Under the pieces are notes generated by a model that was not told the origin of the DNA, ran no database searches, and saw nothing but the letters and a program-made list of their open reading frames with translations. Shown here in pieces: positions 12,676-22,760 of a stretch of DNA of 64,000 nucleotides (position 1 is the first letter of the stretch; each line of letters begins with the position of its first letter). This DNA is from Bradyrhizobium sp. CB1717 (GTDB lineage: Bacteria > Pseudomonadota > Alphaproteobacteria > Rhizobiales > Xanthobacteraceae), in assembly GCF_029714325.1 (NCBI RefSeq), contig NZ_CP121666.1, positions 806,001-870,000 on the forward strand, written 5' to 3'. Both the position numbers and the translations under genes were made by a program.

Positions 12676-12752
12676 GGTCCCGTAGCTCAGCCGGATAGAG
12701 CGACGGTTTCCTAAACCGTAGGTCGGAAGTTCGAGTCTTCCCGGGATCGCCA
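12676..12752 (+). tRNA. tRNA-Arg (anticodon CCT)
   Basis: A complete 77-nt cloverleaf including encoded CCA. The acceptor stem GGTCCCG (12676-12682) pairs with CGGGATC (one G-T pair), then discriminator G and CCA. The anticodon arm ACGGT-TTCCTAA-ACCGT gives anticodon CCT, and the T arm is GGAAG-TTCGAGT-CTTCC. Its 3' 38 nt plus one further base are duplicated at 14591-14629, marking it as the integration target of a small island. Confidence 0.96.
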
Positions 12753-12753
12753 G
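12715..12753 (+). repeat. attL-like 39-bp direct repeat (tRNA-Arg 3' end)
   Basis: From ACCGTAGGTCGG to ATCGCCAG this segment is identical to 14591-14629. It covers the 3' anticodon arm, T arm and acceptor strand of tRNA-Arg, the usual crossover region for tyrosine-recombinase elements. Confidence 0.85.
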
Positions 12754-12935
12754 ATTTCCAAACCTGAAGAAGCCCCCTCACTGACGGATTGAGTGGCTGC
12801 GTCAAGTCGGATGCCGGATTGCGCATCGCGGATGTTTGACGCCGCTGATGTCTCTGGCGGCGCGGCCCCCAGATGAAATTCGGGGCAACGAACGACGTCG
12901 CTGGTTGCGCGAATAGTAAACACATCTTTTAGTAG

Positions 12936-13342
12936 ATGACGCTCTTTCCGATCCGTCGACGCGTGCGGCGCGTCATCATCGAACTGGCAGATGCCGCATC
13001 TGGCTCCAGGCGAGGTGGCGGGGACCGTTACGTAACTTCGCCGCACATACCTAGCCATGAACGTCGATCGCAAACTCTCCAGACGATCCTGAATGCCGAG
13101 GGCTTCCTCCCGCCGGTTCTGGATCGCGCGGCGACGGGATCGGGTGCCTATGACGCGATCCGTGGCCGTGAACAGCAATTGATCAACTATTTCGGCGGTG
13201 CCCAGAATGTCGGAGGAACCGCTGCGGCCATGATCAATGGAGTTGCCGATTTCAATCCGAACGGGCCAGATAGATTGGCGCCTCGATTGCGGCGTTTGGT
13301 AATCTGCCTGATAATTCGCCGGCGCGAATGCGGCTGTATTAA
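12936..13342 (+). pseudogene. C-terminal polymorphic-toxin domain remnant, frameshifted
   Basis: The frame opened by ATG 12936 encodes a segment with the look of an RHS/polymorphic toxin tip: EGFLPPVLDRAATGSGAYD, AIRGREQQLINYFGGAQN, then INGVADFNPNGP. After about 13266-13276 the expected ending continues only in another frame (I-G-A-S-I-A-A-F-G-N-L, stop TAA at 13340-13342). One net frameshift therefore separates the core from its natural C-terminus. The true end lies 14 bp before an Imm26-type gene, the spacing normal for toxin-immunity pairs. No translocation or repeat domains precede it in this window, so it is a fragment or orphan toxin cassette. The family resemblance is from memory of RHS-tip endings, not a search. 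Confidence 0.55.
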
Positions 13343-13356
13343 AATTCGGAGTGAGA

Positions 13357-13866
13357 ATGAAAGCGGCCAAGAAGGCGAAAAAACGCCGCGAGATCGAACC
13401 GGGGTCCATCTTCGAGATAGACCTCGGTGGCCTGGGCAGAACCTACGCCGTCCGGGCCGCAGGCAACGACGTGGCGTTCTTCGACTATCTCGGCAACGAA
13501 GCACCCTCGCCGGAGTTGCTGGCGGCAAAGAAGGTTTTGTTTCGGATGAATGTCGCATCCGATGAGCTGGTATCGGGGAAATGGCCTATCGTGGGGAGCA
13601 TGACCCTGACGGAAGCCCTGGCTCACCCCGGGGCCTATTGGAACCAGCCGGTCGGTTCGAACGAGGTCTTCATTTATCGCGATGGCAAATTCGAACCGGC
13701 GTCACGCGAAGATGTTCAGGGTCTCGAACCGCTGGTGGTCTGGTTTCAAATGCACGCGGAGCAGCGGCTGAAGGACCATTTCGAAGGCAGACCCAACAAG
13801 GCGATCGCATATATGAACAGGATCAAGACATATGATGCCGCGACGGGGATGGAAATTAAGGATTGA
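13357..13866 (+). CDS. Imm26-family immunity protein
   Basis: 169 residues from ATG 13357 (GGAG five bases upstream; GTG 13351 is an alternative). After a basic start (MKAAKKAKKRR) it has the Imm26 sequence pattern: EPGSIFEIDLGGLGRTYAV, VAFFDYLGNEAPSPELL, FRMNVASDELVSGKWPIVGS and a C-terminal LKDHFEGRPN. Immunity proteins of this family bind and neutralise toxins delivered by neighbours or kin. It follows the toxin remnant by 14 bp and is followed 12 bp later by a DUF6881-like gene, forming a toxin-immunity-immunity string inside a tRNA-bounded island. With the toxin frame broken it may persist as an orphan protecting against relatives (inference). Confidence 0.75.
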   Translation: MKAAKKAKKRREIEPGSIFEIDLGGLGRTYAVRAAGNDVAFFDYLGNEAPSPELLAAKKVLFRMNVASDELVSGKWPIVGSMTLTEALAHPGAYWNQPVGSNEVFIYRDGKFEPASREDVQGLEPLVVWFQMHAEQRLKDHFEGRPNKAIAYMNRIKTYDAATGMEIKD

Positions 13867-13878
13867 TGTGCCGCACCC

Positions 13879-14163
13879 ATGAAATACATAAAAGTCCTCT
13901 GGCATCACTCGTTTCCTGATGAGCCGACGGTCCTGTACAGTGAGCTCGACGATGACTTTTGGGAGCACCGCAAGGTGTATGTGTTTCGTGACGGCCGGTT
14001 AGGCTATGCCAGCGCGACGGAAGCGGTAAACTCGGTCAAGCTGAGCATCGAACCGCTGCCGCCTCTGTCGAAGATCGGTTCGGATCCCCAGTTCGATCCG
14101 ATGGAGATTGATAAGGCGGAATTTGATGATGTCTGGTCAAAGGCGCACCGCGCAAACGCCTGA
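13879..14163 (+). CDS. DUF6881-type protein, probable second immunity gene
   Basis: 94 residues starting MKYIKVLWHHSFPDEPTVLY, with ELDDDFWEHRKVYVFRDGRL and a C-terminal DPMEIDKAEFDDVWSKA. This matches the pattern I associate with DUF6881, a small alpha/beta family frequently found among toxin-immunity genes. The ATG is 12 bp after the Imm26-like gene, with only a weak ribosome site, suggesting translational coupling. Function is unproven; an immunity role is inferred from context. Base composition of this gene is lower in GC than the catabolic genes around it, consistent with acquisition. Confidence 0.65.
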   Translation: MKYIKVLWHHSFPDEPTVLYSELDDDFWEHRKVYVFRDGRLGYASATEAVNSVKLSIEPLPPLSKIGSDPQFDPMEIDKAEFDDVWSKAHRANA

Positions 14164-14170
14164 CGGAAAG

Positions 14171-14184
14171 CTGCCGGCCGGCAG
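14171..14184. terminator. perfect palindrome after the immunity genes
   Basis: CTGCCGGCCGGCAG is a perfect 14-nt dyad 8 bases past the DUF6881-like stop codon. It has no T-run, so a role as transcription end is only possible. Confidence 0.3.
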
Positions 14185-14321
14185 GATGGTTCGCGGCAAT
14201 TTCATATGCCTGCGGCAAGGTCGCGACACTGGAGCACCCATCGATATTTTTTCAGATATATAACGAAGATTGAAGAACCGCGCATATGATTGTTCCGTAG
14301 CTATCCTTTATGGAGACCATC

Positions 14322-14552
14322 ATGTCACGACGTTCTCGCATTGTGATCGCCATCATTGCCGTCCTCGCCAGCGCTACTGGCTTCGCCCTGCTCACGCCGC
14401 GCACCGTGGCGCAGGCCGCGCCGCCGCCGCCCGTCGTCGTGACGTTCTCCTATGACAGTCTCGGGCGCGTGGTGCGGGAGGTCTACCCGACCAACTCCAC
14501 CGCCTATAACTACGACGCCGCCGGCAACCGGACCACGTTCACGCTGAACTGA
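14322..14552 (+). CDS. tiny exported YD-repeat (RHS-like) protein
   Basis: 76 residues from ATG 14322 (TGGAG upstream; ATG 14310 also in frame). The first about 35 residues are a signal peptide or anchor (RIVIAIIAVLASATGFALL, then PRTVAQA-A). The rest is one pair of YD motifs: FSYDSLGRVVREVYPT and YNYDAAGNRTTFTLN. YD repeats normally occur in tens within RHS/Tc shells that encase toxins, so a single exported unit cannot form a shell. It may be a decayed piece of an RHS toxin that once belonged with the upstream toxin tail, or a small protein in its own right. It stops 38 bp before the right att repeat. Confidence 0.65.
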   Translation: MSRRSRIVIAIIAVLASATGFALLTPRTVAQAAPPPPVVVTFSYDSLGRVVREVYPTNSTAYNYDAAGNRTTFTLN

Positions 14553-14590
14553 CGAAGGTCCACTGATGCGGCAGCCGTCATGCCCGTCGG

Positions 14591-14629
14591 ACCGTAGGTC
14601 GGAAGTTCGAGTCTTCCCGGGATCGCCAG
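14591..14629 (+). repeat. attR-like 39-bp direct repeat of tRNA-Arg 3' end
   Basis: Exact copy of 12715-12753. Only the 3' part of the tRNA is present, so it is a remnant rather than a second gene. Together the copies delimit 1.9 kb with toxin/immunity content and no integrase. Confidence 0.85.
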
Positions 14630-14664
14630 CTCTTCAGAAGTAAATAAGAACAATTTCTGAAGAG
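14630..14664 (+). terminator. 10-bp perfect hairpin abutting attR
   Basis: CTCTTCAGAA (14630-14639) pairs with TTCTGAAGAG (14655-14664) across a 15-nt AT-rich loop. It begins exactly at the end of the duplicated tRNA segment, so it may be the original downstream hairpin of the tRNA gene, displaced by island insertion (inference). Confidence 0.4.
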
Positions 14665-15088
14665 CGCGTTCCGATGCGCATGCCGGCCTGTCGCATCCGA
14701 GCCCGTATGCGCCGTCCGCGGGCGCAACCTTCAAGCCCGAACGGCTAGAGCTGCCATAACGATGGGATTACCCCGAAAGGGGGAGCGTCCAAACAGCAGA
14801 TTGACAAGTGTACCAGGTTGGGGTGGCCTCAGCGCCCGGCGTGTCGCTCTGCCACCGACGCTATGGCGCCCCTTGGAGCTGCAGCACACGCGATTTGGCA
14901 TTCGAAGCATTGTACCAATGATCCGGAAGGGGCCTCGTCGTCGCGAGGGAAGTGATCATCAGGCCACCAAGATTCCGCTTATTGTGAACGGGAATAGCGT
15001 CCAATTCTGACTCAGGCCTGTCCGAGTACATAGTCACTGTTGCCCTTGCGCAGCGAAGGCGCCGTCCGCCCCATCTTTGGAGCGCGCT
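14665..15088. other. intergenic region before the giant RTX gene
   Basis: About 420 bp with no convincing gene. An 82-codon frame at 14762-15010 has no good ribosome site and no recognisable features. There is a compact CCCC-GAAA-GGGG hairpin with a GNRA-type loop at 14771-14782. The promoter of the downstream gene must lie in this stretch; no clear -35/-10 pair stands out. Confidence 0.5.
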
Positions 15089-18000
15089 ATGGCGATCGTG
15101 AATGGCTTCGACCTCGACAATTCCTCTCCGGGCTTCAACGCAACCGGTTCCTACACCGAAGGCAGCTCTGCGATTCTGTTGGCGCCAAAAGCGACAGTAA
15201 CCGCCAGCGGAAACTTCAGCGGCCAGACGCTGACCATTTCGGGGTTGCTGGCCGAAGATAACATCGGATTTGGGAACGGTGTCACGATCGTCGGCAATAG
15301 CATCCGTATCGGCAACAGCGTCATTGGCACATTCGCGGGAGGCTCTGGCGGCGTGGATTTCGTCGTCACCTTCAGCAATAACGCGACTGATAACCGGGTT
15401 CAGACTCTGCTCCGCAATTTGACCTTTCTGGATACGAGCGAAACTCCCATAACCAGCCAGACTCTGACGTTCAATCTCGCGGGGACCAGTCGCACCGATA
15501 CGCTGACGGTCACCCCGGTGAACGACCTACCACTCGTTGACCTCAATGGCCCGGGAACCGGCAACAATGCAACGGGCTCGTTCATCGAGCAGACCCCGAG
15601 CGTGATTGCGCCGGCCGCGACGATCTCCGATCCCGACTCGTCAAACATCGCGTCGCTTACTGCCAGGCTGACGATGCGTCCGGACGGAAATGCGGTCGAA
15701 TCGCTTTCGCTCAATGCATCCGCAATCGCAGCGGCTGCCGGTCTGACGGTGACCTACAACCAGTCTAGCGGCACGCTATCGATCACCGGCTCCGCCTCGC
15801 AGGCCACCTACCAGGCAATCCTGCAGGGCATCCAGTATAACAACAGCAGCAATCAGCCGACGTCATCCAACCGGACGGTCGAGGTCGTTGTCGGTGACGG
15901 CACGGACACCAGCGTCACGCGCAGTGTGACGATCGGCGTCGCGGCCGCAAATGATGCTCCCGTGGTCGACTTGAATGGCGGGACGGCAGGCAGCTCGGTG
16001 TCGCTTGCTTACACCATCGGCAGTCCGCTGACGAAGATCGCGCCCGCAGGAACGGTGATCGATGTCGACTCGGCGAACTTCAACGGGGGCTCGCTAAGCG
16101 TCAAATTCACTCAGAATGGTGTGACGACCGACCGCCTGGGTATCATCGTAGATTCGGTGGTCACGTTGACCGGCAACGGCGCGGTGCGTGTCAACGGCAC
16201 CACCCTTGGCTCCGTGTCGGGCGGCACCAATGGCACCGATCTCGTGATCACGTTCAGCAACAACAATTCCACACCGGCGGCGGTGCAGATCCTGCTCGAG
16301 CATATCGGCTATGCGAACACCTCCGGCAGCCCGTCGACGTTGACCCGTGAGCTGACGTTCACACTCAACGACGGTGACGGCACCGCCAATAGTGGCCAGA
16401 ACATCGGGAGTGCGACGGCGACGATCACCTTTCCGACGACAAATGCGCCTCCGGTCCTCACCGGGGACCTGGCGGCGACGGTCTCGGAGGGCGGCAGCTA
16501 TGTGATCACCACGACCGACCTGAACTTCACGGACCCGGACGACAGTGCGTCGGGTGTGACGTTCACGGTGACCAACCCCGTCAATGGCACGGTGCTGGTG
16601 AACGGGTCGTCGGCGACCAGCTTCACGGGCCAGCAACTGGCGGCGGGCCAGGTGTCGTTCCAGCACAACGGCTCCGAGACGTCGTCGGCATCGTTTGCCG
16701 TGTCGGTGGAGGACGGCAATGAGGACGGCTCGACGCCGGTGGCGCAGACCTTCAACTTCAGTGTCACGGCGCAGAATGACGCGCCGGTCCTCACCGGCGA
16801 CCTGGCCGCGACCGTGGCGGAAGGCGGCAGCTATGTGATCACGACGGCCGACCTGAACTTCACGGACCCGGACGACGGCGCGGCGGATGTGACCTTCACC
16901 GTGACCAGCCCTGTCAACGGCACGGTGCTGGTGAATGGATCATCGGCGACCAGCTTCACGGGCCAGCAACTGGCGGCCGGGCAGGTGTCGTTCCAGCACA
17001 ACGGCTCGGAGACGTCGTCGGCGTCGTTTGCCGTCTCGGTGGAGGACGGCAATGAGGACAGCTCGACGCCGGTGGCGCAGACCTTCAACTTCAACGTCAC
17101 GGCGCAGAACGATGCGCCGGTCCTGACGGGCGACCTGACGGCGGCGGTGCAGAAGGGCGGCACCTACGCGGTCACGACGACCGACCTGAACTTCACGGAC
17201 CCGGACGACGCAGCGTCGGATGTGACGTTCACGGTCACCAGCCCGGTCAACGGCACCGTGCTGGTGAACGGGTCGTCGGCGACCAGCTTCACGGGCCAGC
17301 AACTGGCAGCAGGGCAGGTGTCGTTCCAGCACAACGGCTCGCAGACCTCGTCGGCATCGTTTGCCGTGTCGGTGGAGGACGGCAACGAGGACGGTTCGAC
17401 GCCGGTTGCGCAGACCTTCAACTTGGCTGTCTTCAATGTTGTCGGCGGTGAGGAAGTCGTCTTGACCACCGGAACGGACGTGCTCGCGCCCAGCGCCGTC
17501 AATACGCGGGTGACAGCCGACGCTTCGACGCTCAATCCGACCGACAATCTTGACGGCGGCGACGGCATCGATTCGCTGGCCCTGTTCGGAGGCGGCACGT
17601 TCGATCTGAACGCCCTTGCGGGCTTTGCCAATTTCGAGAAGGTGGAGGTCGTCAACATCTCCACCACGCCGGTCACGCTGACACTGAGGGACGGCACCAC
17701 CAGCGACGTGACGATCGGCGGGGCGGTATTTACTACCCAGCTCAATCTGTCCGGCACCGCCAGCGCCGGCACCATTCTCGGGGGCGACGGCGCCGATTCG
17801 GTGTCGCTCGCCGGCAGCGCCAGCGCCACGACAATCAATCTCGGTAATGGCAATAATCAGTCCGTGACGCTCTCTGACGATGCCAGTGCCGGAAGCATCC
17901 TGGGTGGCACCGGCAACGATGCCATGACGCTGTCCGGCAATGCCAACGTCGGAGGTTTCCAGGGCGGCGAGGGTACTGATGGTGTGACGCTGTCCGGCAA

Positions 18001-21000
18001 TGCCAGCATGGCAATAATCGATCTTGGCAATGGCAATAATCAGAATCAGTTTGTCAGCCTTTTTGATGCTTCCAGTGCTACGACCATTCAGGGGGGAAGT
18101 GGGCGCGATAGTATTAACCTTTCCAGCAGCGGAAGTGCCAATGTCACGACGATCAGCCTCGGCGGCAACGTTGATTTTGTGACCGTCGCCGACGCATCCG
18201 CCTGGAATCCCAATGTCGCCATCGATGCCGGATCAAGCCTCGATACGCTCAGTTTCGGCGGGTCCAACCAGACATACGACCTGCGCCCGACGACATTGAC
18301 CGGCATCGAGACGTTGTCGGTCGGTGACAACACCGCTCTGGTCGATGGCGACACCCTGACGGGCATCACCAGCATCTCCGGGAGTTCGACCAGCAAGCTC
18401 GTAACCGGCGAGGCATCGCTCGACCTGACCGGCAAGACGGTCTCGGGGCTCACCATTCACAGCAGCAACGCCACCGGCACCACCTTCACGGTCGACAGCA
18501 AGGCGACCGGCTTCCAGGTCTTCGGCGGGGACGGCTCCGACACGCTCCAGACCTCGAGCTTCGCCTTCACCGCCTCCGAACGCGAGGCGATCTTCTTCAA
18601 CTCGTCGATCGAGACGATCGTCGATACCGAGGGAACGTTCCATTCAGACTCCAATGCGGTCATCCTCACCGAGGGTACCGACATCCTCACATTGGCGGCG
18701 GACGACGATACGGTCAAAGGCACCGCCTCGACGCTCAATCCGACCGACAATCTTGACGGCGGCGACGGTATCGATTCGCTGGCCCTGTTCGGAGGCGGCA
18801 CGTTCGATCTCAACGCCCTTGCGGGCTTTGCCAACTTCGAGAAGGTGGAGGTCGTCAACAACTCCACCACGCCGGTCACGCTGACGCTGAGGGATGGCAC
18901 CACCAGCGATGTGACGATCGGCGGGGCTGCCTTTACGACCCAGCTCAATCTGTCCGGCACCGCCAGCGCCGGCACCATTCTCGGGGGCGCCGGCGCCGAT
19001 TCGGTGTCGCTCGCCGGCAGCGCCAGCGCCACGACCATCAATCTCGGTAATGGCAACAATCAGTCCGTGACGCTCTCTGACGATGCCAACGTCGGAAGCA
19101 TCCTGGGTGGCACCGGCAACGATGCCATGACGCTGTCCGGCAATGCCAACGTCGGAAGCTTCCAGGGCGGCGAGGGTACTGATGGTGTGTCGCTGTCCGG
19201 CAATGCCAGCATGGCAATAATCGACCTCGGCAATGGCAATAATCAGAATCAGTTTGTCAGCCTTTTTGACGCTTCCAGTGCTACGACCATTCAGGGGGGA
19301 AGTGGGCGCGATAGTATTAACCTTTCCAGCAGCGGAAGTGCCAATGTCACGACGATCAGCCTCGGCGGCAACGTTGATTTTGTGACCGTCGCCGACGCAT
19401 CCGCCTGGAATCCCAATGTCGCCATCGATGCCGGATCAAGCCTCGATACGCTCAGTTTCGGCGGGTCCAACCAGACATACGACCTGCGCCCGACGACATT
19501 GACCGGCATCGAGACGTTGTCGGTCGGTGACAACACCGCTCTGGTCGATGGCGACACCCTGACGGGCATCACCAGCATCTCCGGGAGTTCGACCAGCAAG
19601 CTCGTAACCGGCGAGGCATCGCTCGACCTGACCGGCAAGACGGTCTCGGGGCTCACCATTCACAGCAGCAACGCCACCGGCACCACCTTCACGGTCGACA
19701 GCAAGGCGACCGGCTTCCAGGTCTTCGGCGGGGACGGCTCCGACACGCTCCAGACCTCGAGCTTCGCCTTCACCGCCTCCGAACGCGAGGCGATCTTCTT
19801 CAACTCGTCGATCGAGACGATCGTCGATACCGAGGGAACGTTCCATTCAGACTCCAATGCGGTCATCCTCACCGAGGGTACCGACATCCTCACATTGGCG
19901 GCGGACGACGATACGGTCAAAGGCACCGCCTCGACGCTCAATCCGACCGACAATCTTGACGGCGGCGACGGTATCGATTCGCTGGCCCTGTTCGGAGGCG
20001 GCACGTTCGATCTCAACGCCCTTGCGGGCTTTGCCAACTTCGAGAAGGTGGAGGTCGTCAACAACTCCACCACGCCGGTCACGCTGACGCTGAGGGATGG
20101 CACCACCAGCGATGTGACGATCGGCGGGGCTGCCTTTACGACCCAGCTCAATCTGTCCGGCACCGCCAGCGCCGGCACCATTCTCGGGGGCGCCGGCGCC
20201 GATTCGGTGTCGCTCGCCGGCAGCGCCAGCGCCACGACCATCAATCTCGGTAATGGCAACAATCAGTCCGTGACGCTCTCTGACGATGCCAACGTCGGAA
20301 GCTTCCAGGGCGGCGAGGGTACTGATGGTGTGACGCTGTCCGGCAATGCCAGCTTGGCAATAATCGACCTCGGCAATGGCAATAATCAGTTTGTCAGCCT
20401 TTTTGATGCTTCCAGTGCTACGACCATTCAGGGGGGAAGTGGGCGCGATAGTATTAACCTTTCCAGCAGCGGAAGTGCCAATGTCACGACGATCAGCCTC
20501 GGCGGCAACGTTGATTTTGTGACCGTCGCCGACGCATCCGCCTGGAATCCCAATGTCGCCATCGATGCCGGATCAAGCCTCGATACGCTCAGTTTCGGCG
20601 GGTCCAACCAGACATACGACCTGCGCCCGACGACATTGACCGGCATCGAGACGTTGTCGGTCGGTGACAACACCGCTCTGGTCGATGGCGACACCCTGAC
20701 GGGCATCACCAGCATCTCCGGGAGTTCGACCAGCAAGCTCGTAACCGGCGAGGCATCGCTCGACCTGACCGGCAAGACGGTCTCGGGGCTCACCATTCAC
20801 AGCAGCAACGCCACCGGCACCACCTTCACGGTCGACAGCAAGGCGACCGGCTTCCAGGTCTTCGGCGGGGACGGCTCCGACACGCTCCAGACCTCGAGCT
20901 TCGCCTTCACCGCCTCCGAGCGCGAAGCGATCTTCTTCAGCTTGTCGATCGAGACCATCCGCGACACCAGCGGTATCTATGGCGACGAGACGGCCAACAT

Positions 21001-21415
21001 GATCGTCGGCACGGCGGCGGCCGACAACATCCAGGGCGGCGCCGGCGCGGACAGGCTCACCGGCGCCGGCGGTCCTGACTTCCTTGCCGGTGGCGCGGAC
21101 GCCGACACCTTCGTTTTCAACCTTCCGTCCGAGGGAGTGGACACGGTTGGCGATTTTGTTTCCGGCGCCGATGTTCTGGAGGTCTCCGCGGCGGGCTTTG
21201 GCGGCGGATTGGTCGCCGGCATGAACGTGGCAAGTGTTTACGGTTCGTCGAGCGACGCCACCTTCGGTTCGTCGACAGAGCGATTCCACTACGATACGTC
21301 GTCCTCAACGCTCTACTTCGACGCTGACGGCAGCGCCTCCGGCACGGCGGCGGTTGCATTGGCGCAGTTCGCGAACGGTATCGTCCTTGATCCGGACGGT
21401 CTGCTGATCGTGTGA
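15089..21415 (+). CDS. giant RTX-type secreted repeat protein (type I secretion substrate)
   Basis: 2108 residues from ATG 15089 (TTGGAG six bases upstream). There is no N-terminal signal peptide. Residues 1-450 hold three diverged cadherin/VCBS-like beta domains with VNDLPLVDLNG- and NDAPVVDLNGG-type linkers. Residues 455-787 are three 111-residue cadherin-like repeats (APVLTGDLAATV, LNFTDPDD, SVEDGNEDGSTPVAQTFNF). Residues 813-1953 are three copies of a 401-residue unit rich in GGDGIDSL/GGAGADSV/DLGNGNN motifs. The C-terminus has calcium-binding nonapeptides (GTAAADNIQGGAGADRL, GGADADTFVF) and a final aliphatic ILVxP-type secretion tail. It is expected to be exported by a type I ABC/MFP/TolC system and to act as an adhesin or matrix protein. 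No transporter genes are in the window. Confidence 0.85.
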   Translation: MAIVNGFDLDNSSPGFNATGSYTEGSSAILLAPKATVTASGNFSGQTLTISGLLAEDNIGFGNGVTIVGNSIRIGNSVIGTFAGGSGGVDFVVTFSNNATDNRVQTLLRNLTFLDTSETPITSQTLTFNLAGTSRTDTLTVTPVNDLPLVDLNGPGTGNNATGSFIEQTPSVIAPAATISDPDSSNIASLTARLTMRPDGNAVESLSLNASAIAAAAGLTVTYNQSSGTLSITGSASQATYQAILQGIQYNNSSNQPTSSNRTVEVVVGDGTDTSVTRSVTIGVAAANDAPVVDLNGGTAGSSVSLAYTIGSPLTKIAPAGTVIDVDSANFNGGSLSVKFTQNGVTTDRLGIIVDSVVTLTGNGAVRVNGTTLGSVSGGTNGTDLVITFSNNNSTPAAVQILLEHIGYANTSGSPSTLTRELTFTLNDGDGTANSGQNIGSATATITFPTTNAPPVLTGDLAATVSEGGSYVITTTDLNFTDPDDSASGVTFTVTNPVNGTVLVNGSSATSFTGQQLAAGQVSFQHNGSETSSASFAVSVEDGNEDGSTPVAQTFNFSVTAQNDAPVLTGDLAATVAEGGSYVITTADLNFTDPDDGAADVTFTVTSPVNGTVLVNGSSATSFTGQQLAAGQVSFQHNGSETSSASFAVSVEDGNEDSSTPVAQTFNFNVTAQNDAPVLTGDLTAAVQKGGTYAVTTTDLNFTDPDDAASDVTFTVTSPVNGTVLVNGSSATSFTGQQLAAGQVSFQHNGSQTSSASFAVSVEDGNEDGSTPVAQTFNLAVFNVVGGEEVVLTTGTDVLAPSAVNTRVTADASTLNPTDNLDGGDGIDSLALFGGGTFDLNALAGFANFEKVEVVNISTTPVTLTLRDGTTSDVTIGGAVFTTQLNLSGTASAGTILGGDGADSVSLAGSASATTINLGNGNNQSVTLSDDASAGSILGGTGNDAMTLSGNANVGGFQGGEGTDGVTLSGNASMAIIDLGNGNNQNQFVSLFDASSATTIQGGSGRDSINLSSSGSANVTTISLGGNVDFVTVADASAWNPNVAIDAGSSLDTLSFGGSNQTYDLRPTTLTGIETLSVGDNTALVDGDTLTGITSISGSSTSKLVTGEASLDLTGKTVSGLTIHSSNATGTTFTVDSKATGFQVFGGDGSDTLQTSSFAFTASEREAIFFNSSIETIVDTEGTFHSDSNAVILTEGTDILTLAADDDTVKGTASTLNPTDNLDGGDGIDSLALFGGGTFDLNALAGFANFEKVEVVNNSTTPVTLTLRDGTTSDVTIGGAAFTTQLNLSGTASAGTILGGAGADSVSLAGSASATTINLGNGNNQSVTLSDDANVGSILGGTGNDAMTLSGNANVGSFQGGEGTDGVSLSGNASMAIIDLGNGNNQNQFVSLFDASSATTIQGGSGRDSINLSSSGSANVTTISLGGNVDFVTVADASAWNPNVAIDAGSSLDTLSFGGSNQTYDLRPTTLTGIETLSVGDNTALVDGDTLTGITSISGSSTSKLVTGEASLDLTGKTVSGLTIHSSNATGTTFTVDSKATGFQVFGGDGSDTLQTSSFAFTASEREAIFFNSSIETIVDTEGTFHSDSNAVILTEGTDILTLAADDDTVKGTASTLNPTDNLDGGDGIDSLALFGGGTFDLNALAGFANFEKVEVVNNSTTPVTLTLRDGTTSDVTIGGAAFTTQLNLSGTASAGTILGGAGADSVSLAGSASATTINLGNGNNQSVTLSDDANVGSFQGGEGTDGVTLSGNASLAIIDLGNGNNQFVSLFDASSATTIQGGSGRDSINLSSSGSANVTTISLGGNVDFVTVADASAWNPNVAIDAGSSLDTLSFGGSNQTYDLRPTTLTGIETLSVGDNTALVDGDTLTGITSISGSSTSKLVTGEASLDLTGKTVSGLTIHSSNATGTTFTVDSKATGFQVFGGDGSDTLQTSSFAFTASEREAIFFSLSIETIRDTSGIYGDETANMIVGTAAADNIQGGAGADRLTGAGGPDFLAGGADADTFVFNLPSEGVDTVGDFVSGADVLEVSAAGFGGGLVAGMNVASVYGSSSDATFGSSTERFHYDTSSSTLYFDADGSASGTAAVALAQFANGIVLDPDGLLIV
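16451..17449 (+). repeat. three tandem 333-bp cadherin-like coding repeats
   Basis: Units start at 16451, 16784 and 17117 with exactly 333-bp spacing (111 residues). Each encodes PVLTGDL...LNFTDPDD...VNGTVLVNGSSATSFTGQQL. DNA is highly similar but not identical: the third unit reads LTAAVQKGGTYAVTT where the others have AEGGSYVITT. Confidence 0.9.
17525..20945 (+). repeat. three tandem near-identical ~1.2-kb coding repeats
   Basis: Units begin at 17525, 18728 and 19931, 1203 bp (401 codons) apart. Large stretches, for example 18088-18456 against 19291-19659 and 20428-20796, are translated identically even in antisense frames, so the DNA is essentially identical. The third unit lacks 66 bp: 60 bp between two ATGCCAACGTCGGAAGC direct repeats and a 6-bp CAGAAT. 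Homology stops near 20945. Confidence 0.92.
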
Positions 21416-21471
21416 GGACTATCCGGCAGCCCCCGGGCGGCTGATCAACAGGGAGTGGCGCAGGCACGCAT

Positions 21472-21502
21472 GATCGGGGGCCGGCCGTCGCCGGCCTCGA
21501 TC
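21472..21502 (+). terminator. GC-rich hairpin after the RTX gene
   Basis: GGCCGGC (21479-21485) and GCCGGCC (21490-21496) pair around a CGTC loop, extended by GATCG/CGATC with a small bulge. There is no T-run, so termination is plausible but not certain. Confidence 0.4.
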
Positions 21503-21620
21503 ACTCCCCATGCTTTGCTTGTTCGGCGCGAGATTTGCTATAGGCAGTTTGAGATCAGCGGGAAGACGGTTCGGGCCGCTCGCCCGCCATGCCACGCCTT
21601 GCCTCAATCCGGAGACCATG

Positions 21621-22760
21621 ATGCCTTTTGACTTGATCCTGCGCGGCGGAAGGGTCGTTGACCCCTCTCAGAAGCTCGATGCCGTGACGGATGTCGCATT
21701 TTCGGGCGGCAAGGTCGCCGCGATCGGCACCGGGCTCAAGGCGGATCCGGGTACGGATGTGCGCGACGTTTCGAAATACATCGTGACGCCGGGACTGATC
21801 GATCTCCACACCCATGTCTATTGGGGCGGCACCTCGCTCGGCATCGATGCCGAGGAATTCTGCCGCCTGTCAGGCGTCACCACGGCGGTGGACACCGGCA
21901 GTGCCGGGCCCGGCAATTTCGCCGGTTTCCGCAAGCATGTGATCGAGCCGAGCCAGGTCCGCATCCTCGCTTATTTGCATGTCTCGCATGCCGGCATCTT
22001 CGGCTTCTCGCACCGGATCATGGTCGGCGAGAGCGAGGAGCTGCGGCTGATGAATCCGATCGAGGCGGCCAAGGTCGCCGACGCCAACCGCGATCTCATC
22101 GTCGGCATCAAGGTGCGCGTGGGCCTGCATTCCTCGGGCACCTCCGGGATGGTGCCGCTCGACATCGCGCTCGAGGTCGCCAATGAGGTCGGCATGCCCC
22201 TGATGGCGCATATCGACCATCCGCCGCCGAGCTATGAGGAGGTGCTGGCCCGGCTGCGTCCGGGCGACGTGCTGACCCATGCGTTCCGTCCCTTCCCCAA
22301 CACGCCGGCGACCGCGCAGGGCACGGTGAAGAAGGTGGTGCTGGACGCGCGCGAGCGCGGCGTGCTGTTCGACATCGGTCACGGCAAGGGCTCGTTCGCG
22401 TTCAAGACCGCGCGCGCGATGCTCGCCAACGGCTTCTATCCCGACACCATCTCCTCCGACATCCACCAGCTCTGTATCGACGGCCCCGCCTTCGACCAGG
22501 TGACGACCATGTCGAAATTCCTCTGCATGGGCATGGAGCTGTCCGACGTGGTCGCGGCCTCGACCGTGAACGCGGCGATGGCGCTGCGCCGCCCCGAGCT
22601 CGGCAGCCTCAAGCCCGGCAGCGTCGGCGACGCCACGCTGATTTCGGTGAAGCAGGGCCAGTTCGATTATGAGGACGTCGTCGGCGAGCACCTGATCGGC
22701 GATCGCAAGATCGTCTCGGAGGGTGTCGTCATCGGCGGCCGCTGGTGGCATCCGAACTGA
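21621..22760 (+). CDS. amidohydrolase / deacetylase-type metal-dependent hydrolase
   Basis: 379 residues from the second of two adjacent ATGs (21621), six bases after GGAG. It opens with FDLILRGGRVVDPSQKLDAV and carries the metal motif DLHTHVYWGG near 60-70, the typical start of the amidohydrolase TIM barrel. Further ligands are likely in AHIDHPPPSYEE, and the closing Asp in ISSDIHQLCID. The C-terminal beta sandwich resumes at LKPGSVGDATLISV. This is the dihydroorotase-like/EF_0837-type deacetylase group acting on cyclic amides or N-acyl amino acids. Substrate not known. Convergent with the TlpA-like gene. Confidence 0.88.
   Translation: MPFDLILRGGRVVDPSQKLDAVTDVAFSGGKVAAIGTGLKADPGTDVRDVSKYIVTPGLIDLHTHVYWGGTSLGIDAEEFCRLSGVTTAVDTGSAGPGNFAGFRKHVIEPSQVRILAYLHVSHAGIFGFSHRIMVGESEELRLMNPIEAAKVADANRDLIVGIKVRVGLHSSGTSGMVPLDIALEVANEVGMPLMAHIDHPPPSYEEVLARLRPGDVLTHAFRPFPNTPATAQGTVKKVVLDARERGVLFDIGHGKGSFAFKTARAMLANGFYPDTISSDIHQLCIDGPAFDQVTTMSKFLCMGMELSDVVAASTVNAAMALRRPELGSLKPGSVGDATLISVKQGQFDYEDVVGEHLIGDRKIVSEGVVIGGRWWHPN

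Follow-up and report, generated by a model that had tools for sequence, protein, structure and literature searches.

A short, integrase-less island at tRNA-Arg(CCT) in a layered insertion hotspot of Bradyrhizobium sp. CB1717

Islands at tRNA genes are known from rhizobia. For Bradyrhizobium japonicum USDA6, the available part of PMC3927601 lists 15 tRNA islands, five of them with no integrase listed and the smallest being 2,899 bp at trnR-ACG; multiple duplications are reported there at three tRNAs, and trnR-CCT does not appear in its island table. Cis-mobilizable elements (CIMEs), in the part of PMC5704250 available to us, lack integration and transfer genes, keep their attachment (att) sites and often stand in tandem arrays, and accretion is described. 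The accessible sections of PMC8627217 name tRNA-Arg among the attachment genes of the integrative and conjugative elements (ICEs) and integrative and mobilizable elements (IMEs) of Mesorhizobium, and those of PMC11476347 report that Sinorhizobium meliloti has a tandem island at tRNA-Lys. Nothing on a trnR-CCT site was found in the available part of PMC11837538, and a limited literature search returned no paper on Bradyrhizobium trnR-CCT. Here, we analysed a 64,000-nucleotide stretch of Bradyrhizobium sp. CB1717 (contig NZ_CP121666.1, positions 806,001 to 870,000; hereafter the window, whose own numbering is used), in which a 1.9-kb segment lies between an intact tRNA-Arg(CCT) and a second copy of that tRNA's 3' end. 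Very probably, this segment is what remains of an integrative element, or of satellite-like cargo, that recombined site-specifically into the tRNA-Arg(CCT) 3' end and no longer has an integrase. We class the locus as a CIME-like tRNA island that has decayed and lies within a layered hotspot, an ordinary and already known type.

The repeat-bounded island at tRNA-Arg(CCT)

The features that define the segment are as follows.

12676..12752, plus strand: intact tRNA-Arg(CCT), the putative attachment gene (ARAGORN; Rfam RF00005, 66.1 bits)
12715..12753, plus strand: left 39-bp repeat copy, attL-like (exact match to 14591–14629)
14591..14629, plus strand: right 39-bp repeat copy, an attR-like tRNA 3' end (exact match to 12715–12753)
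12754..14590, no strand: 1.84-kb island of low GC content (57.8%), with no convincing counterpart at the DNA level among 264 further genomes of the genus

The two copies agreed at 39 of 39 positions, and the identity did not extend by a single base on either side. The repeat begins on the 3' side of the anticodon stem and stops one base beyond the CCA; as ARAGORN ends the tRNA at 12752, the final repeat base (G, 12753) lies outside the gene. An earlier reading of the same DNA made without database searches (the sequence-only reading) had placed both copies correctly, and had rightly stated that the left one completes an intact tRNA-Arg(CCT) and the right one represents its 3' part only. All exact repeats of at least 25 bp that were not wholly within 15000–21500 belonged to this pair. 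The CB1717 genome is one contig of 9,232,581 bases, and apart from the tRNA itself these 9.23 Mb matched the tRNA query at 100% only at 820591–820629, the right copy. We infer that the left copy, together with the intact tRNA, corresponds to the attL of an element and the partial copy at 14591–14629 to its attR.

The composition of the enclosed DNA was distinct. Its GC content of 57.8% compared with 61.0–68.9% in 258 slices of the same length outside 12.75–21.6 kb, and the ten lowest-GC slices among 311 across the whole window all overlapped the island. We compared its DNA with 264 other Bradyrhizobium genomes, one per species (265 with CB1717). Short, weak matches were obtained in 20 of the 264, none longer than 142 bp, with a best E-value of 6.9e-6. 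The sequence-only reading had named the presence of the same 1.9 kb at this site in all distant relatives as one observation that would contradict it; no such spread was seen.

Four likely genes were identified in the island.

13086..13268, plus strand: remnant of a presumed toxin C-terminal domain (open piece P0001; matches P0010–P0013, E 1.6e-13 to 9.8e-11; pieces not joined)
13357..13866, plus strand: Imm26-like gene, 169 aa, intact frame (PF15428, E 2.5e-4, 21.7 bits, under the curated cut-off of 23.3)
13879..14163, plus strand: DUF6881 gene, 94 aa, intact frame (PF21812, E 3.6e-34)
14310..14552, plus strand: orphan YD/RHS-repeat peptide, 80 aa, with a hydrophobic N-terminus as judged by eye (PF05593, E 6.5e-9; TIGR01643)

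An N-terminal part was found in three of the four P0001 relatives (P0011–P0013) and was absent from P0001, after which the in-frame similarity ended. P0001 is presumed to be a toxin because it precedes an immunity-like gene. We take the N-terminal motifs of P0011–P0013 to be GIY-YIG nuclease-like, although no library confirmed them. The Imm26-like gene had eight homologues with 72–93% identity; its neighbourhood gave 145 pattern matches in genome contigs and 57 in viral contigs, among which no relative was confirmed. Family and position suggest that the Imm26-like and DUF6881 genes may act as immunity genes. In other genomes the YD peptide had four matches, all of them weak (E 2e-4 to 5e-4); it was the only RHS-repeat match in the CB1717 genome, so that no complete Rhs toxin gene was found. 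A polymorphic toxin–immunity locus comprises a complete toxin gene with an immunity gene, whereas the toxin tail here was truncated relative to P0011–P0013. PADLOC returned no match for the four proteins submitted, and no transfer gene was detected by Pfam among the four likely genes. These gene calls agree with the sequence-only description of the content as non-metabolic (toxin tail, immunity-like genes and YD protein).

Integrases were searched for with the PF00589 profile (E up to 0.001) in the whole CB1717 genome. No match fell in the 64-kb window, and hence none between the repeats, as had been read from the sequence; an IntI-type integrase, as for an integron cassette array, was also absent from the window. 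The genome held 24 PF00589 matches, and those closest to the window (806–870 kb) lay at 753 kb and 948 kb.

The island resembles the tRNA islands of USDA6 and USDA110, as given in the available part of PMC3927601, in having an intact tRNA at one end, a duplicated tRNA 3' end at the other and low GC content, some of those islands also being without an integrase; it differs from them in its shorter length (1.84 kb) and its position at trnR-CCT. It is like the CIMEs of PMC5704250, as far as they are described in that part, in having no PF00589 integrase and no transfer genes among its four likely genes; its repeat, identical at 39 of 39 positions, may represent retained att sites. CIMEs are also characterized by derivation from an ICE or IME through deletion and by mobilization in cis after accretion; no relative of the island with mobility genes was found in the DNA search of the other genomes. 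The Mesorhizobium elements covered by the accessible text of PMC8627217 differ from it as well: these ICEs and IMEs range from kilobases to hundreds of kilobases, carry transfer genes and, in the case of the IMEs, start at 5,814 bp, and the anticodon of their tRNA-Arg is not stated in that text.

Empty and filled sites in other Bradyrhizobium genomes

Matches were listed for 264 of the 265 genomes, CB1717 included, and 97 tRNA-Arg(CCT) loci (40 + 57) were fetched in the order of that listing, a sample biased toward genomes whose DNA upstream of the tRNA is similar to that of the window. The features to the right of the island were as follows.

14760..21415, plus strand: second acquired module, an RTX/cadherin-repeat gene with upstream DNA (83% identical to G161 DNA from 14760; PF16184, PF00353)
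21449..21510, plus strand: likely 3'-terminal remnant of a DUF2252 gene (BLAST matches from the core gene extend left as far as 21449–21452 in L053, L061, L068 and L075)
21618..22760, plus strand: conserved amidohydrolase gene, in empty sites the nearest syntenic gene to the right of the tRNA (PF01979)

Among the 62 classifiable loci, 28 were empty, with the amidohydrolase starting 112–215 bp after the tRNA (126 bp in L120, for example), and 34 were filled, with the start at 0.99–3.54 kb. By conserved right-hand DNA, the nearest fetched relatives were G052 (L044, 93.8%), which carries another insert of 0.99 kb, and G071 (L045, 92.3%), which is empty. The empty site thus consists of the tRNA, about 120 bp and the amidohydrolase gene that begins at 21618 in the window, and the acquired stretch in CB1717 accordingly measures about 8.7 kb, from 12753 to about 21.5 kb, and is layered. 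The acquired DNA comprises at least three layers. The empty tRNA-Arg sites anticipated by the sequence-only reading are therefore real, but their junction joins the tRNA to the amidohydrolase gene and not 12753 to 14630; likewise, its bounds for the 1.9-kb island (12676–14664) were correct as coordinates, but the acquired DNA continues to about 21.5 kb. Three features of a tRNA-integrated genomic island were hence found at the locus: an intact tRNA with a partial 3' copy, atypical composition and an empty site, the last for the whole 12753–21.5 kb interval.

The RTX/cadherin-repeat protein has 2112 aa (gene 15077–21415) and long, near-identical internal repeats. The G161 match spans much of this gene and lies in a different neighbourhood there, and ARAGORN reported no tRNA in the 20 kb fetched around it. 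Outside CB1717, 14630–15700 matched G161 strongly, G194 over 165 bp inside the repeat gene (69%, E 2.1e-11) and 13 further genomes weakly. The 62 bases at 21449–21510 alone matched L061 over 61 bp (79%, E 3.5e-6), and the C-terminal residues agreed; this piece is likely, judging from these alignments, the 3' remnant of a DUF2252 gene carried by relatives at the site. Nine of the 34 filled relatives belong to the DUF2252 insert group by DNA, the family having been assigned by Pfam for one of them, L053. We also searched for native flanking sequence next to the repeats. The segment 14630–14790 gave weak local alignments with the 97 loci (top z 4.7, L160; 30 shuffles), and the three alignments shown did not include the hairpin described below; 12754–12914 reached a top z of 5.2 (L162), and both results were taken as noise. 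The second repeat is followed on its right by DNA other than the native flank.

The 34 filled relatives fell into 13 groups without mutual DNA similarity (criterion, E 1e-10 over 150 bp), and neither segment of the window joined any group. A copy of the tRNA 3' end was detected 121–172 bp before the amidohydrolase gene in six of the 34 (L049, L050, L054, L056, L122 and L163). The exactly matching terminal bases numbered 14 in L050, 18 in L056 and 30 in L049, and the copies in L054, L122 and L163 had 3 or 4 mismatches of 38. Native-like flank followed the copy in all of the six except L049. As a control, 50 shuffled queries over the 34 inserts yielded no matches.

The T-arm of tRNA-Arg(CCT) occurred in three base-pairing-compatible versions among the 97 loci (88, 5 and 4 loci). 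In L056, the tRNA carries the GCATG/CATGC T-arm and the right copy retains CTTCC, the native end; the opposite holds in L163, which has a native tRNA with GCATG/CATGC in the right copy. Such a mismatch between tRNA and copy is a trace of recombination inside the tRNA, and integration appears to swap the 3' half of the tRNA. T-arm versions were also noted as a side observation at L056, L063, L071, L114 and L163; the insert of L056 (G057:C1, near 129 kb) at trnR-CCT, with its 18-nt tRNA-end copy, is 1.7 kb long and is not listed among the islands tabulated in PMC3927601.

Integrases downstream of these tRNAs were sought by comparing 1,507 open reading frames (ORFs) of at least 120 aa, 3' of the 97 tRNAs, with 22 CB1717 integrases (phmmer, E 1e-6), a comparison that distant integrases would escape. 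Two ORFs matched: one in L058, 6.3 kb from the tRNA, and one in L063 of genome G221, whose end lies 14 bp from the tRNA. The G221 integrase matched PF00589 at E 0.0048 on a partial sequence, under the cut-off, and was 54% identical to the CB1717 integrase beside tRNA-Arg(TCT) (L003, G000:C1:5180793-5181977). In G221, a 15-nt match to the tRNA end lies 16.7 kb from the tRNA, the amidohydrolase gene follows 4.8 kb beyond, and the genes between look phage-like by eye. The larger island with an integrase at the same tRNA, proposed as a check on the sequence-only reading, is thus present in one strain. The G221 insert shares the tRNA gene with the CB1717 island but differs in having an integrase, phage-like genes (by eye) and another T-arm in the tRNA. 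Of 30 loci of the G221-type integrase family, seven were at tRNA-Arg(TCT), four at tRNA-Glu and one each at tRNA-Met and tRNA-Leu, and 17 had no tRNA in the examined stretch. A candidate attachment-arm motif, CCAAACC, which follows the CCA both in the window and at the tRNA-Arg(TCT) integrase of CB1717, was rejected as it is missing at the 84% identical integrase of G114.

Origin of the repeat and competing explanations

In the scenario that we favour, an element would have inserted into the tRNA-Arg(CCT) 3' end through site-specific recombination and later been left without its integrase. Its cargo would be the remains of a polymorphic-toxin locus, namely a truncated toxin tail, two immunity-like genes with intact frames and a lone YD peptide. 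Beyond it to the right, the DNA would be an older or separate acquisition at the same hotspot, which would give an accretion array in the order tRNA, element, tRNA 3' end, RTX module, rest of the DUF2252 gene and core gene. The order of events, and a tyrosine integrase as the maker of the repeat, are inferred. The element is probably immobile by itself today and could be excised by an integrase acting in trans.

Foreign GC content, the duplicated tRNA end, the missing integrase and the G221 insert all favour the minimal or decayed integrative element first suggested from the sequence, but no strain showed the join of 12753 to 14630. The empty and filled sites of relatives, the tRNA-end copies in six of them, the T-arm differences in two and the lone tRNA halves on two other replicons (see below) also speak for it. 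Several further points weigh against this explanation. None of the 97 fetched loci had its tRNA joined to the sequence at 14630, and 35 of them were not classifiable; CB1717's species had no second genome in a set with one genome per species. A relative carrying the same 1.9 kb with an integrase was not found, and the search for island DNA in the 265 genomes scored two candidates per genome. The tRNA-end copy was not seen in the other 28 of the 34 filled inserts. Moreover, the right copy is followed by a flank of neither the native nor the DUF2252 type, leaving no attB or attP with which attR could be compared.

The nature of this flank gives weight to another arrangement, a tandem integration in which the RTX module arrived first, so that the copy at 14591–14629 was left by the first event and belongs to the left end of that module. 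To the right of the copy no native flank was matched, G161 has the RTX module by itself in another place, and tandem accretion is described in the available parts of PMC5704250 and PMC3927601. However, 130 bp separate the repeat from the start of the G161 match at 14760, ARAGORN reported no tRNA in the 20 kb there, and 14640–21600 contained no third copy of the tRNA end (best candidate, 19 of 38 mismatches; 13–19 in 20 shuffles). We give the tandem arrangement somewhat less than an even chance. An origin of the repeat by segmental duplication, or by homologous recombination between strains, would need no integrase, in keeping with the window, and would fit interval contents that vary between close lineages; yet the copy stops a single base after the CCA, like tRNA attachment copies, six relatives have such copies near the core-gene junction, two of them with T-arm differences, and G221 has an integrase at the same tRNA. 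Such an origin is unlikely. A repeat could in principle misassemble, although a repeat of 39 bp is too short to break ordinary assemblies; the single 9.23-Mb contig, the low GC content and the distinct gene content leave chance or an assembly artefact with hardly any probability.

Returning to the integrative-element remnant, the interval between trnR-CCT and the amidohydrolase gene might also be regarded more broadly as a chromosomal cassette slot, in which few-gene, integrase-less modules (the 13 groups and the two of the window) are exchanged in trans at tRNA 3'-end sites by integrases that visiting phages bring in, with the T-arm swapped among three base-pairing-compatible versions. We consider this broader model improbable. 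Taken alone, the CB1717 locus is an ordinary decayed island; taken with its relatives, it belongs to a countable hotspot of 62 loci in which sites are empty or filled, inserts hold few genes and T-arms can differ between tRNA and partial copy. This hotspot can be used for asking whether islands without an integrase are inert relics or continue to be mobilized in trans.

Hairpin at the right repeat and tRNA halves on other replicons

One further feature adjoins the right repeat.

14629..14665, plus strand: 13-pair hairpin without a T-run (−23.4 kcal/mol, z −5.3)

Its arms (14629–14641 and 14653–14665) form 12 Watson–Crick pairs and one G–U pair. The perfect 10-bp hairpin noticed at the end of the right repeat is therefore real but longer, with 13 pairs including the G–U. 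It had also been suggested to be the displaced downstream signal of the tRNA. This suggestion was rejected, as none of the 97 relatives had either 11-nt arm in the 400 bp that follow the tRNA and the hairpin has no T-run; no terminator-like site was reported at the hairpin.

Searches of plasmid and phage records (for phage, the first 20 of 79 records) returned tRNA-type matches, one 52-bp match to a Streptomyces plasmid and a Microvirga fragment. Two records contained a lone 3' half of tRNA-Arg(CCT) ending in CCAG, and their integrases showed no BLASTP similarity to that of G221 at E 1e-3. In IMGVR_UViG_3300010219_000070 (17,678 bp), the half is at 1761–1792 (L231, 533–564), 1.76 kb from one contig end, and an integrase lies toward the other end (17160–17588; 29.0 bits against a cut-off of 27.1); ARAGORN found no complete tRNA around the half in the 3.2 kb examined. 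In the 1.13-Mb Microvirga lotononidis plasmid NZ_CP141050.1, the half is at L230, 12001–12050, and an integrase gene lies about 0.8 kb from it, with a tRNA-Met in between.

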